Assembly (NCBI RefSeq): GCF_900454025.1
Contig: NZ_UGQM01000001.1
Span: 5,766,001 to 5,830,000 of the forward strand
Length of the DNA stretch: 64,000 bases
Reading direction: 5' to 3'
Origin: Mycolicibacterium gilvum
Lineage (GTDB): Bacteria; Actinomycetota; Actinomycetes; Mycobacteriales; Mycobacteriaceae
Shown: positions 3,913 through 32,946 of the stretch, in pieces
Position numbering within the stretch: position 1 is the first letter of the stretch
How the letters are laid out: each line of letters begins with the position of its first letter
Notes under the pieces: generated by a model
Databases searched by the model: none
Told to the model about the DNA's origin: nothing
Seen by the model: only the letters and a program-made list of their open reading frames with translations
Translations under genes and position numbers: made by a program

Positions 3913-5091
3913 ACTCCTATGACTACTTCCACTCGCAGACTCGCCGCCCTGCTGACCATGATCGTCGTCCTGCTCGCCGCCTGCACCGGCGTCGAGCCCA
4001 CGACCGGCTCGACGACCGGTGCGTCGGGGAGTTCGTCGGCGACCACGACGACGTCCCGCTCCCCCTTCGAGCCGACCACCACCCCGACTCCTCCCGACAC
4101 CTCGATCCCGCTGCTGGCCTACCGCGCGGCCGACGAGATCGGTCTGGTCGAGGGCACCACCGTCGTCGCGTCGGTGAAGGGGTCCTTCGATCCGTCCAAC
4201 GACCTGATCACCACCGAGGACGACAGGTTCGTGTTCGCCCGCACGTCCGACGGCCTGCTCGCGACGCTGGAGGTCGCCACCGGCAAAGGTGACACACGTG
4301 AGGTGCCGGTCGGGCCCAACGTGGGCACCGCGGGCGGTAGCGCGATCCTGTGGTGGGAACAGCCCAACCGGTTGATGCGTCTGGATCTCGCCGATTCAAC
4401 GTCTGCGCCCGAGCTGCAGCAGGTGGTGGACCTGCCGCCGGTCGCCGGTGTCCGTCCGGGCGACCCGCGTCTGCTGATCGCGCGCGGCGGCACCGCGGTG
4501 GTGGCGCGGACGGAGGCACCGCCGTCGCCGTTCGGTGGACCGGACACCCTCTACGCGATCCGGGGGCCCGGCGCCCCGGCGCCGCTGGGCCAGGTCGACG
4601 CAAACAGCCCGGTGTCGGTCGCGCGTCTGAGCCCCGACGGCGCCCGGCTGTCCTATGCGCTCTACCAGGCCACCGACAACGCCTGCGGGACGGCCGCGGT
4701 GGTCACCTCGGATGCCGACGGTGCCCAGGAGACGTTCGACGTCGCCGGACCGGACGCCGATGCAGGGTCACGGATCACCAAGCTGTGGTGGCCCGCGACG
4801 GGCGCGCCGAAGCTGAGCCTGACCACGTGGACGTGCGGCCGGCCGCAGACGTATCCGCCGGTGGTGTGGCAGGTGTCCGGGGACCAGATCGCACAGACGA
4901 ACCCGCCGACGTCGGCGCTGCAGACCGCCGAGGTGGCGCCGGGTCAGCGGGCGCTGATCCTGCCGAGCACCGCGGCGCCGGGTGAGCCCGCGGGTGCGCT
5001 GGTGGTCGAGGACAGCTCCCGGCGCATCTCGGTGAAGGGCTTGGAGCAAGGTGCTGTCGACGCCATCGCGGTGATCCCGCCGTCTCCGTAG
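3910..5091 (+). CDS. Lipoprotein with probable beta-propeller-like fold
   Basis: 393 aa with a typical lipoprotein signal: [17 protein letters not shown], lipobox LAAC with Cys25, then a low-complexity Thr/Ser/Pro linker (about residues 27-65) and a soluble domain. That domain has repeated [19 protein letters not shown] and LWW-type motifs resembling TolB/WD40-like propeller blades. It is predicted to be anchored to the outer face of the cytoplasmic membrane. Two ATGs are possible (3910 and 3919). The second gives MTTSTRRL and avoids the hairpin at 3894-3912. Divergent from the MTHFR and immediately upstream of selO. No specific function can be assigned. Confidence 0.8.
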
Positions 5092-5094
5092 TCT
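5089..5094 (+). promoter_or_regulatory. -10 box for a leaderless selO transcript
   Basis: TAGTCT (TANNNT), whose TAG is also the stop codon of the lipoprotein gene, sits 7 nt before the GTG of selO. That is the spacing expected for a transcript starting at or one base before the start codon. Confidence 0.45.
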
Positions 5095-5101
5095 GGGTGG
5101 A

Positions 5102-6559
5102 GTGAGTATTGCGCTGGGAAGCCGGTTCGCCGGGGAGCTTTCGGAGCTGACGGTTCCGTGGAAGGCCGAGGAGGCTCCGCAACCGCGGCTGCTGGTGCTC
5201 AACGAGCCGCTGGCGACCGAGCTCGGACTGGACCCGGACTGGTTGCGCGGGCCCGACGGTCTCGGTCTGTTGACGGGGACGCGGGTTCCGGCGGAGGCGT
5301 CGCCGGTGGCTCAGGCCTATGCCGGGCACCAGTTCGGCGGGTTCCAGCCCCGGCTCGGCGACGGCCGGGCGTTGCTTCTCGGTGAGATCGAGGGGCCGGA
5401 CGGACACCTGCACGATCTGCATCTGAAGGGCTCCGGACGGACGCCGTTCGCCCGGGGCGGCGACGGTCTCGCGGCTGTCGGACCGATGCTGCGCGAGTAC
5501 GTCATCAGTGAAGCGATGCATGCCCTGGGTATTCCGACCACCCGCGCGCTGGCGGTGGTGGCGACCGGGAAGACGGTGTACCGGGAGTCGCCGCTGCCCG
5601 GTGCGGTGCTGGCCCGCGTCGCGTCCAGCCACCTGCGCGTCGGGACGTTCCAGTTCGCACCGCTGCTGATGCGCGCGAGCGGGAACACCGATCTGCTGCG
5701 GAGGCTGGCCGACCACGCGATCGCGCGTCACCACCCGGCGGCCGCGGACGCCGAGCAGCCCTACCTGGCGTTGCTGGAGGCGGTCAGCGCGGCGCAGGCC
5801 CGACTGGTGGCGCAGTGGATGTCGGTGGGCTTCATCCACGGGGTGATGAACACCGACAACATGACGATCTCGGGCGAGACCATCGATTACGGGCCGTGCG
5901 CGTTCATGGAGGCGTTCGATCCCGCCACGGTGTTCAGCTCGATCGACAGCTGGGGGCGCTACGCGTACGGCAATCAACCGTCGATCGCGCTGTGGAATCT
6001 GGCGCGCTTCGCCGAGGCCCTGCTGCCGCTGCTGGCCGACGACGCCGAGGCGGGCATCGCGGTGGCCGAGGCGTCGCTCGGCGAATTCCAGGGTCTCTAC
6101 GAGGCGGCGTGGACCGACGCGATGGCCCGCAAGCTCGGTGTGGCCGGTGCGTCCGCGGACACCGTCGAGGCTCTGGTCGGGGATCTGCTGACGCAGTTGC
6201 AGCAGAGCGGGCTCGACTGGACGCTGTTCTTCCGGCGGCTGGCCGGGGCGGCGCGCGGGGACGCCGAGCCGGTGCGCGGCGAGTTCATCGACCTGGCGAC
6301 GTTCGACGGCTGGTTGCAGCGCTGGCGCGATCTGGGCCCGGACGCCGACGCGATGGACCGGGTCAATCCCGTCTACATCCCGCGCAACCATCTCGTGGAG
6401 GAAGCGCTGACCGCTGCCACCGGTGGCGACCTGGGTCCGGTGGAGAAGCTGCTCGACGCGATCCGGTCGCCGTTCGACGTGCGCGCCGGTCTGGACCGGT
6501 ACGCCGAACCGGGCCCACGGGAGTTCAGCGCCTCCTTCCAAACCTTCTGTGGAACATGA
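5102..6559 (+). CDS. selO: Protein adenylyltransferase SelO (YdiU/UPF0061 family)
   Basis: 485 aa pseudokinase-fold enzyme of the SelO family, which transfers AMP from ATP to Ser/Thr/Tyr of target proteins and is linked to redox stress. Visible hallmarks are [18 protein letters not shown] near the N-terminus, [35 protein letters not shown], and [27 protein letters not shown], which contains the catalytic and metal-binding Asn/Asp residues. The protein ends in CGT: a Cys at position 483 sits where eukaryotic SELENOO has selenocysteine and other bacterial forms keep Cys. GTG start at 5102. Length matches the bacterial family. Confidence 0.95.
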
Positions 6560-28696: not shown

Positions 28697-28876
28697 AGTG
28701 CATTCCTTCGATCGTCAAGATCGGCCCCCCGAAAGAACCTGTACGCGTCGCGCCGTCACTCTATCGGCGTCGCGCGATCACCCGTTACACCACCATTGCC
28801 CAACGCGCAGAAACGATTTCGTTATCTGGACAGTGCGCGCTGACGTGCGCGTTGACGTTTCCGTAAGACTGCTCGG

Positions 28877-28905
28877 TCGACATCGGGCGCCCACCTGCCT
28901 AGAGT
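28877..28905 (+). promoter_or_regulatory. SigA-like promoter of the PP2C-B12-STAS operon
   Basis: TCGACA (28877-28882), a 17-nt spacer and TAGAGT (28900-28905): good -35 and -10 spacing about 48 nt before the ATG at 28953. The leader also contains a GGGCCG/CGGCCC stem (about 28914-28937) and an AGGAGG Shine-Dalgarno. Confidence 0.6.
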
Positions 28906-28952
28906 CGACAGACGGGCCGGACCACGTTCGGCCCCTTTGAGGAGGCAACTGA

Positions 28953-30530
28953 ATGGGCGAGATTACTCCCCTCGACGTGGTCTCCGGGATTGACAGTGTG
29001 TGGGACTCGGTTCCCCACCCGGTGCTGGTGGTCGATCGCGGCGGAATGGTCCGCACGCTGAGCGCCTCCGCCCGGTCGGTGCTGCCGGACATCGGTCCCG
29101 GTAGCGCCGTCGAAGACTTCGTACCGTCCTGGCTGTCCGGAGACGACGACCGCGAGGCGCGCACCACCGAACTGCCCGACGGTGAGATGGCGTGGTGGCT
29201 GCTGGAGGATTCGGCGCGGTCGACCCGCCTGGCGTTGACGCTCGAACGCGAACGTTCCGAGTTCCTCGACGAGGCGTCGGCGGTGCTGATGGCGTCGTTG
29301 AACATCGACCGCTGCATGGAAGCCACGGTGCAGATGGCCGCGCGGCATCTCGCGGACGCCGCCGTGCTGGTCGCACCTGCTTCCGGCGGTGTCGTCCCGC
29401 TCGTCTTCGGCCTGCCCGACGGCACGACAGAGCACCGCAGGATCGATGCCGACCCGGCCGAGGTGGCAGGTCTCAGCGAGGCCCTACGCGGCTTCCCGCC
29501 GGTCCCGTCACGCTGGATAGACCCCGGATCACTGCCCGAATGGCTTGTCCCCCCTGGGTTTTCGGACGGAACCGGTGGCGTGGTGATCACTCCGCTGCCC
29601 GGTCACGGTGTCCCGGCCGGAGCGCTGGTGCTGTTGCGCCGGTCGTCGGAGAGCACGTTCAGCGACGGTGAAGAGGTGTTCGCCCGGCTGTTCGCCGCAC
29701 GGGCCGGCGCGGCGCTGTCCGCGGCCCGGCTGTACGCCGAGCAGTCCACCATCACCCGCACCCTGATGCGCGAGCTGCTGCCACCCCAGCTGCAGCGTCT
29801 CGACGGCATCGAACTCGCGGGCGGTTACCGGGCCTCGGCGGACCACGAGACCATCGGCGGTGACTTCTACGACGTGCACCCTGCGGCCGGGCCCGACGAC
29901 GAGACGCTGGTGATCCTCGGCGACGTGTGCGGCAAGGGGCTCGACGCCGCGGTGCTGACCGGCAAGATCCGTAACACGTTGCAGGCGCTGGCCCCGCTGG
30001 CCGCCGACCACACCGGGGTGCTCAAACTGCTCAACAGCGCTCTGCTGTCGATCGACGACACCCGGTTCGCGACCCTGGTGCTCGCGTCGGTGGTCCGCCG
30101 CGACGGATTCGTGCGGTTGCGACTGACCAGTGCCGGACATCTCGCACCGCTGATCGTCCGCAACGACGGCAGCGTGGAGGAGGCCGACACCGGGGGCACG
30201 CTGGTCGGTGTCATGCCGACGATCCGGGCCCGCACCGTCGACGCGGCGCTGGCGCCGGGCGAGACCTGCCTGTTGTTCACCGACGGCGTCACCGAGGCCC
30301 GCGGCGGCCCGCTGGGCGCCGACATGTTCGGCGAGGCCCGTCTCAGCGCAGCGTTGTCGCAGTGCGCGGGCCTGCCGGCCGAGGCCGTCGTCGAACGCAT
30401 CATGATGTTGACCTCAGAGTGGGTACACAACCGTGCACATGACGACATCGCCGTCGTCGCGATCACGGCCCCGCGGCGCACACACCTGAGCGCCGTCGAC
30501 GGCCACACCGCCGGGAGGTTCACCGCTTGA
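28953..30530 (+). CDS. PAS-GAF-PP2C (SpoIIE/RsbU-type) serine phosphatase
   Basis: 525 aa. A PAS-like domain (about residues 10-95: DSVPHPVLVVDRGGMV) and a GAF domain (about 105-265) precede a PP2C-SpoIIE phosphatase domain (about 285-505). Metal-binding Asp residues are in GGDFYDV, ILGDVCGKGLDAA, LLFTDGVTEAR and AHDDIAVVAI. Such enzymes dephosphorylate STAS-type antagonists in partner-switching control of sigma factors. AGGAGG is perfectly placed before ATG 28953. The stop overlaps the next start (TTGA), so the B12 protein and STAS protein downstream are almost certainly its partners. Confidence 0.92.
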   Translation: MGEITPLDVVSGIDSVWDSVPHPVLVVDRGGMVRTLSASARSVLPDIGPGSAVEDFVPSWLSGDDDREARTTELPDGEMAWWLLEDSARSTRLALTLERERSEFLDEASAVLMASLNIDRCMEATVQMAARHLADAAVLVAPASGGVVPLVFGLPDGTTEHRRIDADPAEVAGLSEALRGFPPVPSRWIDPGSLPEWLVPPGFSDGTGGVVITPLPGHGVPAGALVLLRRSSESTFSDGEEVFARLFAARAGAALSAARLYAEQSTITRTLMRELLPPQLQRLDGIELAGGYRASADHETIGGDFYDVHPAAGPDDETLVILGDVCGKGLDAAVLTGKIRNTLQALAPLAADHTGVLKLLNSALLSIDDTRFATLVLASVVRRDGFVRLRLTSAGHLAPLIVRNDGSVEEADTGGTLVGVMPTIRARTVDAALAPGETCLLFTDGVTEARGGPLGADMFGEARLSAALSQCAGLPAEAVVERIMMLTSEWVHNRAHDDIAVVAITAPRRTHLSAVDGHTAGRFTA

Positions 30531-31603
30531 GCGCCTCTGATCTCGACTGCCTGGCGCCGCAGGAGCGGCTCTGGGCTGCGGTCATGGACGGCGACGAGTA
30601 CGCCGCGTCGACCGTGGTGTTCGAGGCGCTCGACGCCGGCATCGCCCCCGAGGACGTGCTGCTCGACGTCATCGCGGTCGTGCAGCGTCGCGTCGGCACG
30701 GAATGGGCCGCCAACCGGATCACCGTGGCGCAGGAGCACGCCGCGACCGCGATCAACGACCGCGTGATCGCGGCGCTGGCACATCATCCGAAGGCGCGTC
30801 GCCGACCGGATGCCGGCCGCGTGACCGTCGCCTGCGTCGACGGTGAGTGGCATGCGCTACCCGCGCGGCTGCTCGCCGAGGTGCTGCGCCTGCGCGGCTG
30901 GCAGGTCGACTTCCTCGGCGCTCAGGTCCCCACGCCGCATCTGATCGCCCACGTCCACCAGCACGGCCCGGTAGCGGTCGCGCTGTCGTGCTCGATTCCG
31001 ACCCGGCTGCCCACCGCGCACGCCGCGATCACCGCGTGCCAGGCTGCGGGCGTACCGGTGCTCGCCGGTGGCGCGGCGTTCGGGTTCGACGGCCGGTTCG
31101 CCCGGTTGCTCGGCGCCGACGCATGGGCGTCGGACGCCCGGACCGCGGCCGACCTGCTGCGCGGCGGCGTGCGGCCTGCGCAGTCGACCGCAACCCACCA
31201 GCCCATCGACGATCTGCCGCACCTGGCCGATCAGGAGTACACGATGGTGCGCAGTACTGCGACGACACTGGTCCAGACCACCGTCGAGGAACTCGAGGAC
31301 CGCTACCCCGCGATGCGCGACTACAACCCGGCGCAGCGCGAACGCACCGCCGAGGACATCGCGCACATCGTGGCATTCCTCTCCACCGCGCTCTACACCG
31401 ACGACGACGATCTGTTCACGGAGTTCGTCTGCTGGACCGCCGAGATCCTCGTCGCCCGGGCAGTGCCCGCCGAGTCGCTGTATCCGGCCCTGGACTCGCT
31501 GTCCGGTCAGCTGCGCGAATTCCCGCGCGCCCAACGCCTTCTCACCGCAGCCCACGCTGCATTGCACCAATCCACTACAACCAACCCCCCACTATTCGCA
31601 TGA
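30527..31603 (+). CDS. CarH-like cobalamin-binding sensor protein
   Basis: 358 aa. The four-helix B12-capping domain (about 1-95) carries the CarH-type signature W-x9-EH as W60...E70-H71 (WAANRITVAQEH). The Rossmann-like B12-binding domain (about 96-225) has E107-W-H109, with His109 placed as the lower axial cobalt ligand, followed by FLGAQVPTPHL. There is no MerR-type DNA-binding domain. Instead a roughly 120-residue all-helical C-terminal domain follows (about 235-355, YPAMRDYNPAQRERTAEDIAH). TTG start with GGAGG 9 nt upstream; the TTG overlaps the phosphatase stop. It likely reports adenosylcobalamin state, or light, to the phosphatase/STAS pair. Confidence 0.85.
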   Translation: MSASDLDCLAPQERLWAAVMDGDEYAASTVVFEALDAGIAPEDVLLDVIAVVQRRVGTEWAANRITVAQEHAATAINDRVIAALAHHPKARRRPDAGRVTVACVDGEWHALPARLLAEVLRLRGWQVDFLGAQVPTPHLIAHVHQHGPVAVALSCSIPTRLPTAHAAITACQAAGVPVLAGGAAFGFDGRFARLLGADAWASDARTAADLLRGGVRPAQSTATHQPIDDLPHLADQEYTMVRSTATTLVQTTVEELEDRYPAMRDYNPAQRERTAEDIAHIVAFLSTALYTDDDDLFTEFVCWTAEILVARAVPAESLYPALDSLSGQLREFPRAQRLLTAAHAALHQSTTTNPPLFA

Positions 31604-31947
31604 AACTCACACTCGCGCTGCACACCACCGGCCGGTCGACCTCCGTCCGGGTCGCCGGAGACCTCGATTACGGGACGACCCGACTGCTGGTCGACACCGT
31701 GTCGGACCTGTTGACCGGCGGCAAGGTTCCCGAAGAACTGCACCTCGACTTCTCCGACCTGGCGTTCTGCGACTCCGCCGGACTGTCCGGGCTCGTCATG
31801 ATCCACCGCCGCACGAGTGCCGCGGGCGTGCGCCTCCATCTCGACGACCGGCCCGCCCAACTGGAGCGGATCCTGACCATCACCGGTCTGCTGGACTTCC
31901 TCACCGCGACACCCGCCGAGGCATCGGACGAGTCGGTCATCGGCTGA
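31600..31947 (+). CDS. STAS-domain anti-anti-sigma factor
   Basis: 115 aa single STAS domain. The phosphorylatable Ser is Ser59 in FCDSAGLSGLVMIHRR, the classical anti-anti-sigma motif. Length and fold match RsbV/SpoIIAA. Dephosphorylated by the PP2C phosphatase encoded two genes upstream, it would bind an anti-sigma kinase and release a sigma factor (SigF-like systems in mycobacteria). ATG overlaps the previous stop (ATGA). No RsbW-type kinase is encoded in this window. Confidence 0.92.
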   Translation: MKLTLALHTTGRSTSVRVAGDLDYGTTRLLVDTVSDLLTGGKVPEELHLDFSDLAFCDSAGLSGLVMIHRRTSAAGVRLHLDDRPAQLERILTITGLLDFLTATPAEASDESVIG

Positions 31948-31950
31948 CCC

Positions 31951-32946
31951 ATGTCGTTGCGCGTCGCGGTCACCGGCCCCACGGGTGAGATCGGAATCTC
32001 CACGATCTCGGCGCTCGAGGCGCTGCCCGAAGTCACCGAGATCGTCGGTATGGCGCGGCGACCGTTCGACCCTGCCGCGCAGGGCTGGACCAAGACGCTC
32101 TACCGACAGGGCGACATCCTCGACCGCGACGCCGTCGAACGGCTCGTCGAGGACGCCGACGTGGTCGTCCATCTCGCGTTCATCATCATGGGTTCGCGGG
32201 AGGAGAGCGCCCGCGTCAACCTCGCCGGGACCCGCAACGTCTTCGAGGCCGTCGTCGCGGCCGCCCGCCCCCGGCGGCTCGTCTACACCTCGTCGGTGGC
32301 CGCCTACGGCTATCACGCCGACAACCCGGTGCCGATCACCGAGGACGTACCGGTCCGGGGCTCGGCCGAGCATTACTACTCCGAACAGAAGGCCGCCTGC
32401 GAGGCCGCACTGCGGGAGGTGACCGCGGGATCCGACCTCGAGGTGTACGTACTGCGCCCGTGCATCGTCGCCGGCCCCAAGGCCACCGCCCTGGCCGACG
32501 CCATGCCCTGGAATCAGCTCCCGATGCCGGTGCAGCGAGTCGCCCAGGCCCTGCCGCTGCTCAAGCCGCCGTTCCCCGATCCGGGTACGCCGCTTCAGCT
32601 CGTCCACCACGACGATGTCGCGGCGGCGATCGCGCTGGCGGTGACCACCACCACCGCGCCGCCGGGGGCCTACAACATCGCCGGTGACGGCGTGTTGTCG
32701 ATGTCTGCACTCGGCGAGGCCCTCGGTGCCCGGCCGGTCCCCGTGCCCCGCGCGGCGGCGGTGGCGGCATCGGAGGTGATCGCCCGGTTGCCGTTCGTGC
32801 CGTCCAGTCTCGAGTGGCTGCACGCGGGACGCACGTCGGTGGTGATGGACACCGGCAAGGCCAGGGATCAGCTCGGATGGAGACCGAAATACAGTGCGGC
32901 CGAGACACTCTCGGCGCTGGCCGCGGCCCGGGGGCACGGCGGATGA
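31951..32946 (+). CDS. NAD-dependent epimerase/dehydratase (extended SDR)
   Basis: 331 aa. N-terminal nucleotide-binding motif VTGPTGEIG, catalytic Ser/Tyr/Lys in LVYTSSVAAYGYH and YYSEQKAACE, then LRPCIVAGPKATA and HHDDVAAAIALAV typical of extended SDRs. It resembles NAD(P)-dependent sugar-nucleotide or hydroxy-lipid processing enzymes; the substrate is unknown. It begins 3 bp after the STAS stop and ends in a 4-bp ATGA overlap with the hydrolase gene, so it belongs to the same transcription unit, although a link to signalling is not obvious. Confidence 0.88.
   Translation: MSLRVAVTGPTGEIGISTISALEALPEVTEIVGMARRPFDPAAQGWTKTLYRQGDILDRDAVERLVEDADVVVHLAFIIMGSREESARVNLAGTRNVFEAVVAAARPRRLVYTSSVAAYGYHADNPVPITEDVPVRGSAEHYYSEQKAACEAALREVTAGSDLEVYVLRPCIVAGPKATALADAMPWNQLPMPVQRVAQALPLLKPPFPDPGTPLQLVHHDDVAAAIALAVTTTTAPPGAYNIAGDGVLSMSALGEALGARPVPVPRAAAVAASEVIARLPFVPSSLEWLHAGRTSVVMDTGKARDQLGWRPKYSAAETLSALAAARGHGG

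Follow-up and report, generated by a model that had tools for sequence, protein, structure and literature searches.

A photocobilin gene overlapping PP2C phosphatase and STAS genes in Mycolicibacterium gilvum points to a probable light-gated partner switch

Which signal would be sensed by a B12-binding protein whose gene is wedged between those of a phosphatase and an anti-anti-sigma protein, and through which partners would it act? The question is raised by three consecutive genes of Mycolicibacterium gilvum, located on the + strand of a 64,000-nucleotide stretch of a 6.43 Mb genome (contig NZ_UGQM01000001.1, positions 5,766,001 to 5,830,000; the whole stretch is referred to here as the window). 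They encode a SpoIIE/RsbU-type PP2C phosphatase of 525 residues (28953..30530; Pfam SpoIIE), a B12-binding protein of 358 residues with a TTG start (30527..31603) and a STAS anti-anti-sigma protein of 115 residues (31600..31947; Pfam STAS). Two stop/start overlaps join them: the TGA stop of the phosphatase gene (30528-30530) meets the TTG start at 30527 in TTGA, and the TGA stop of the B12 gene (31601-31603) meets the ATG start of the STAS gene at 31600 in ATGA. A preliminary description of this DNA had reported the trio and both overlaps, and its coordinates hold. The triad is best explained, in our view with good but far from complete likelihood, as a photocobilin-gated partner switch.

Within the B12-binding protein, Pfam finds two B12 domains alone, i.e., a four-helix adenosylcobalamin (AdoCbl) cap carrying W60 and E70-H71 (B12-binding_2, residues 12-84; 30560..30778) and a Rossmann B12-binding domain with the lower axial ligand H109 (residues 97-205; 30815..31141). 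A third domain, recognized by its fold, is a bilin-binding globin (photoglobin) domain with D277 and W303 (residues 230-352; 31214..31582), and a four-helix cap and Rossmann domain joined to such a globin is the architecture of photocobilins. The full-length fold matches SasPcob, with 159 of 328 aligned residues identical. In SasPcob, the pocket for the adenosyl group is shaped by Trp61 and Glu71-His72, the lower ligand is His108, and His137, Asp270 and Trp296 touch biliverdin (PMC10979010). The window protein retains all seven residues (W60, E70, H71, H109, H138, D277 and W303), and its AdoCbl motifs read W60, E70-H71 and E107-W108-H109.

Conservation was followed in two sets of loci that share some genomes, so that their counts are not additive. 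The first comprises 36 orthologues, namely the 30 best matches of the genus, own genome included, and six phylum loci at 49-65% identity, drawn from samples of the genus (49 of 148 genomes matching at E <= 1e-20) and of the phylum (21 of 396 matching). The second comprises 80 named loci, the best 80 of at least 225 confirmed relatives found with search patterns built from triad sequences, and spans Mycobacterium/Mycolicibacterium, Nocardia, Amycolatopsis, Streptomyces, Actinoplanes, Actinomadura and others; the closest named relative among the matches listed, from which the own genome was possibly left out, is Mycolicibacterium parafortuitum (80% identity in the B12 protein). W60, E70, H71 and H109 are invariant in both sets (36/36 and 80/80), as is the bilin Trp W303, and E107 shows a single change, to Asp, among the 36. 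At the bilin position D277, one of the 36 orthologues has Glu and the other 35, like all 80 named loci, have Asp; H138 is His in 35/36 and 79/80. Taken together, fold model and sequence make the window protein almost certainly a photocobilin, predicted by analogy to bind AdoCbl and biliverdin and to photoconvert in green and red light. In a few same-genus genomes (G010, G068, G141 and L031 (G133)), photocobilin genes are split or contain stops.

Position 61, which we take to be the site of the second histidine of CarH, is Ala in 34 of the 36 orthologues, Val in one and Gln in one. The preliminary description had read this Ala beside the Trp as a sign of altered photochemistry; however, SasPcob has Gln62 here and a light state that is water/hydroxide-ligated and not bis-His (PMC10979010), so Ala61 is no anomaly and is better read as normal for a photocobilin. 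The CarH-like AdoCbl residues that it had pointed out are present and conserved, and its notion of a CarH-like protein with an all-helical domain survives for the core, which shares with CarH the AdoCbl-binding fold and the W-x9-EH motif; what this notion missed is that the protein is a photocobilin with a bilin pocket, from a family already described and crystallized (PMC10979010). It was also right that the protein bears no DNA-binding output domain: no MerR-type domain was found by Pfam, and the first long helices of the model belong to the B12 cap. A CarH-type transcription factor was rejected for want of a DNA-binding domain and a second His; unlike CarH/LitR, which combine a MerR domain with a bis-His light state, the window protein matches neither and carries a globin. 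A further peculiarity is Cys302 (~31430-31432), directly before W303, which none of the other 35 orthologues shares with the window protein. It prompted the idea of covalent bilin attachment; SasPcob has Thr at this place.

The phosphatase is built of a helix (residues 87-114), a GAF domain (~118-255), a linker helix (238-274) and the PP2C domain (286-505); residues 14-85 are PAS-like in the predicted model only, the matches listed for the protein covering mainly the PP2C domain. The catalytic Asps of the PP2C domain, particular ones of which presumably bind metal, are retained in 36/36 orthologous loci. The STAS protein scores 56.7 bits against TIGR00377 (cut-off 53.45), and the Ser of its D-S-A-G-L motif, which we assume to be the phosphorylatable residue, is likewise retained in 36/36.

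Are the three genes kept together? A PP2C gene lies directly upstream of the photocobilin gene in 36/36 and 80/80 loci, and a STAS gene directly downstream in 36/36 and 68/80; in the 80 loci, neighbors were counted by domain coordinates, with the photocobilin at a common approximate 5001-6015 in 71 and at printed or nearly printed positions in nine. The comparison across relatives that had been called for thus returns the triad in every one of the 36 loci, 30 of them of the same genus. In the 12 named loci with no downstream STAS gene, a STAS match lies upstream in eight (weakly in L148 and L162). Five Nocardia loci (L136, L144, L145, L156, L171; two of one species) show the order STAS, RsbW-type kinase, PP2C, photocobilin; PP2C and STAS genes, with such a kinase in the same row, bear out the partner-switch setting first proposed. 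The genus also holds a second, distant class of photocobilin at 33-39% identity (L069-L076, L094, L095), and G095, G042 and G004 hold both classes. In its ten larger loci, PP2C is upstream in all, a divergent STAS gene is adjacent in six, and a kinase gene stands beside STAS in three. In nine genomes read, position 138 of this class is Arg throughout; the bilin position is Asp in two, Thr or Ala in six and a gap in one. The own genome contains three further B12-binding genes, and as a control the ~1.5 kb flanks of these loci (L001-L003) were compared with the triad proteins, none of which matched at E 1e-2.

A short C-terminal tail of the phosphatase (residues 511-525; 30483..30527, + strand) offers a candidate docking peptide. 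A regular expression for HLSAVDGHTxGR[YF]TA matches it in 33 of 36 orthologues (missing L033, L039 and L040) and in 56 of 80 named loci, and the model, with a predicted local distance difference test score (pLDDT) below 50, predicts it to be disordered. Its synonymous positions vary, yet AGG encodes the Arg in 79 of 89 cases; judging from the sequences, the tail is conserved at the protein level, and this AGG probably also serves the photocobilin gene as its ribosome-binding site. Of the 68 loci with a downstream STAS gene 55 have the tail, vs 1 of the 12 others (Fisher p 2.4e-6, relatedness ignored). In a quick tree, four losses of the downstream STAS gene are inferred, in lineages that are tail-less except L151, although for the lineage of L152, L169 and L179 the STAS-keeping neighbors are tail-less as well; 13 STAS-keeping loci have no tail, and ten tail changes are inferred overall. 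None of 13 second-class PP2C rows inspected (some genomes twice) has the tail.

How would these parts work together? In the dark, the photocobilin would form a head-to-tail dimer with AdoCbl bound and, probably, biliverdin in the globin domain. Breakage of the Co-C bond by green light (via the cobalamin) or red light (via the bilin) would give a water-ligated light state that departs from the dimer. The photocobilin would act in trans on the neighboring GAF-PP2C phosphatase, altering its linker-driven dimerization and hence its activity; the phosphatase would strip the phosphate from the STAS Ser, and the unphosphorylated STAS protein would capture an RsbW-type kinase encoded elsewhere, thereby freeing a sigma factor. 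Phosphorylation of STAS by the kinase and its reversal by PP2C are predicted by analogy, and we infer all contacts among the three proteins as well as the release of the sigma factor. For SasPcob and AbDPcob, two-chromophore photochemistry and a light-driven state change are reported, light increases the kcat of AbDPcob more than 10-fold, and an enzyme is activated by photocobilins also in trans (PMC10979010). A linker mechanism published for RsbU supports the linker-driven control of PP2C, and the own genome encodes SigF with an RsbW-like gene at G000:C1 ~1492633-1493151, as well as an RsbW-type gene linked to STAS at ~3281291-3281737.

Several points weigh against this proposal. None of the 24 kinase-type matches (HATPase_c_2) of the own genome lies inside the window; a kinase gene within a partner-switch operon is usual, not required. 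The 80 named loci were picked with triad-orthologue patterns and are biased towards triads. Four of them (L141, L152, L169, L179) have no STAS match at all in the stretch examined and 12 have none downstream, so photocobilin and PP2C may have other outputs. Among 16 lower-identity phylum loci (L041-L056), 13 have no PP2C match in flanks of at most ~1.5 kb, the three with a match all being same-genus, and none of the 16 matches the window STAS within these flanks. The reported trans effect reversed its sign without biliverdin (PMC10979010), so the direction of the light effect is not predictable, and the odds that light increases phosphatase activity are only slightly above even. As to the chromophore, a PF01126 heme oxygenase is missing from 19 of the 36 triad genomes, and SasPcob is reported in print to have failed to dimerize without biliverdin. 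In addition, the MhuD-like matches (see below) of G037 and G145 contain TAG, which left our estimate unmoved.

Where, then, might the bilin come from? The own genome encodes a canonical PF01126 heme oxygenase ~9.4 kb past the window (G000:C1:5839371-5839958), one of 17 among the 36 triad genomes (11/30 in the genus, 6/6 outside it). Heme oxygenase as a marker of the triad was rejected, being found in 11/30 triad genomes vs 42/118 other genus genomes (Fisher p = 1), the latter including G010, G068 and G141 with their split near copies of the photocobilin. In the 19 genomes without PF01126 the bilin position is nevertheless Asp in 18 and Glu in one, and the Trp is kept in 19/19, which leaves another enzyme for or an outside source of biliverdin, another bilin in the pocket, or another reason for retaining the residues. 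A MhuD-like match occurs in 35 of 36 triad genomes, including all 19; the protein passes no NCBIfam cut-off, its structure matches include Rv3592 (3hx9, 1.9e-56), and MhuD is described as making mycobilins (PMC8801480). Several genomes of the genus sample, e.g., G054, G055, G090 and G145, combine a phytochrome PHY domain with no PF01126 heme oxygenase and present the same supply puzzle.

Of the competing explanations, the one that fares best, though we think it unlikely, is that the photocobilin targets STAS or the kinase rather than the phosphatase, as an RsbR-type scaffold. RsbR also bears a non-heme globin, a relationship reported in print, and the STAS gene adjoins in 68/80 loci; however, the linkage to PP2C is stricter in the named loci (80/80) as in the second class (10/10 vs 6/10 for STAS). 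Somewhat doubtful too, and in our judgment quite unlikely, is a sensor of cobalamin status or of heme/bilin status, in which the phosphatase would respond to occupancy by AdoCbl or a bilin, with light sensitivity as a by-product. AdoCbl binding alone reduced AbDPcob activity relative to the apo protein (PMC10979010), and bilin may be absent from the 19 genomes that lack PF01126. Against this stands the full light-sensing set (W, EH, axial His, bilin Asp, Trp), kept in nearly all orthologues, and the phytochrome-PP2C fusion of the own genome, whose presence means that light input to such a phosphatase exists there. It is improbable, as a variant, that the mycobacterial antenna is another bilin, not or not only biliverdin, e.g., a MhuD-type mycobilin, with the light state relayed to or through the PP2C tail. 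This variant draws on the persistence of Asp and Trp in the 19 genomes, the MhuD-like match in all of them, the lack of association between heme oxygenase and triad, and a conserved tail that is absent in 11 of 12 loci without downstream STAS. A methyltransferase corrinoid protein fortuitously beside regulatory genes is scarcely credible and was rejected, with fold and gene order against it; in its favor, NCBIfam also lists corrinoid proteins (MtgC among them), at scores far short of the cut-offs.

The photocobilin-gated partner switch can be set beside several known systems. SasPcob of Saccharothrix syringae (8J2W/8J2X; Zhang et al. 2024, PMC10979010) is likewise a standalone protein with the same full-length fold and the seven chromophore residues, but the one pointer to its natural partners in that paper is a STRING network, whereas the likely partners here are encoded by overlapping genes. 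That network has SasPcob potentially interacting with STAS, SpoIIE and PP2C-like proteins in Saccharothrix (PMC10979010), so the original statement that no such system had been described was too strong; PMC11796333, on the same proteins, makes no mention of STAS or SpoIIE in the text examined. AbDPcob/AbPcob (8J2Y) is fused to a diguanylate cyclase, unlike the standalone triad photocobilin, has His in place of the bilin Asp and sits outside the SasPcob/triad clade. The output side resembles the RsbU/SpoIIE partner switch and Rv1364c of M. tuberculosis, which unites RsbU and RsbW domains in one chain (3ke6), whereas the triad keeps its sensor as a protein of its own, the photocobilin, and the window holds no kinase gene. 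Closest to home, the bacteriophytochrome-PP2C protein of the own genome (G000:C1 ~1715606-1717903) joins, like the triad, a light-sensor family to a SpoIIE-type phosphatase, but in one chain. Outside the window, at G000:C1 ~1712588-1717903 (L084:3589-8904), a gene for a PP2C-HATPase protein precedes that for the fusion. In the open-access literature we found no test of an effect of light or B12 on phosphatase or STAS phosphorylation. The sensor family is thus already described and its output previously guessed, a guess that the gene linkage strengthens.

The triad is preceded by a sigma-A-like promoter on the + strand (TCGACA-17-TAGAGT, 28877..28905), as the preliminary description had indicated. 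It is the sole sigma-70-like consensus match within 28697-28960 (shuffle mean 0.1), and its hexamers, 17 or 18 nucleotides apart, are recognizable in 4/4 upstream regions that were aligned. Three nucleotides 3' of the STAS gene starts a NAD-dependent epimerase-type gene (31951..32946, + strand; Pfam Epimerase 2.9e-27), which may be co-transcribed with the triad. Of 12 larger triad loci from the genus, three contain a relative of it, and by this comparison it is no conserved part of the module; nor was a wider conserved neighborhood beyond the triad seen, as the next downstream genes of the window recur in 3 of these 12 loci.

Collectively, the linkage, which joins PP2C to the photocobilin in all orthologous loci examined, STAS in the majority and a kinase in some, names the partners of the photocobilin and makes its output testable, and a bilin pocket retained without a canonical heme oxygenase poses a concrete chromophore question. 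If the proposal is true, the triad would be a natural phosphatase-based optogenetic switch, driven by green and perhaps red light, and in Mycobacterium, Nocardia, Streptomyces and their relatives B12-based light sensing would extend to a sigma switch of the stress type.
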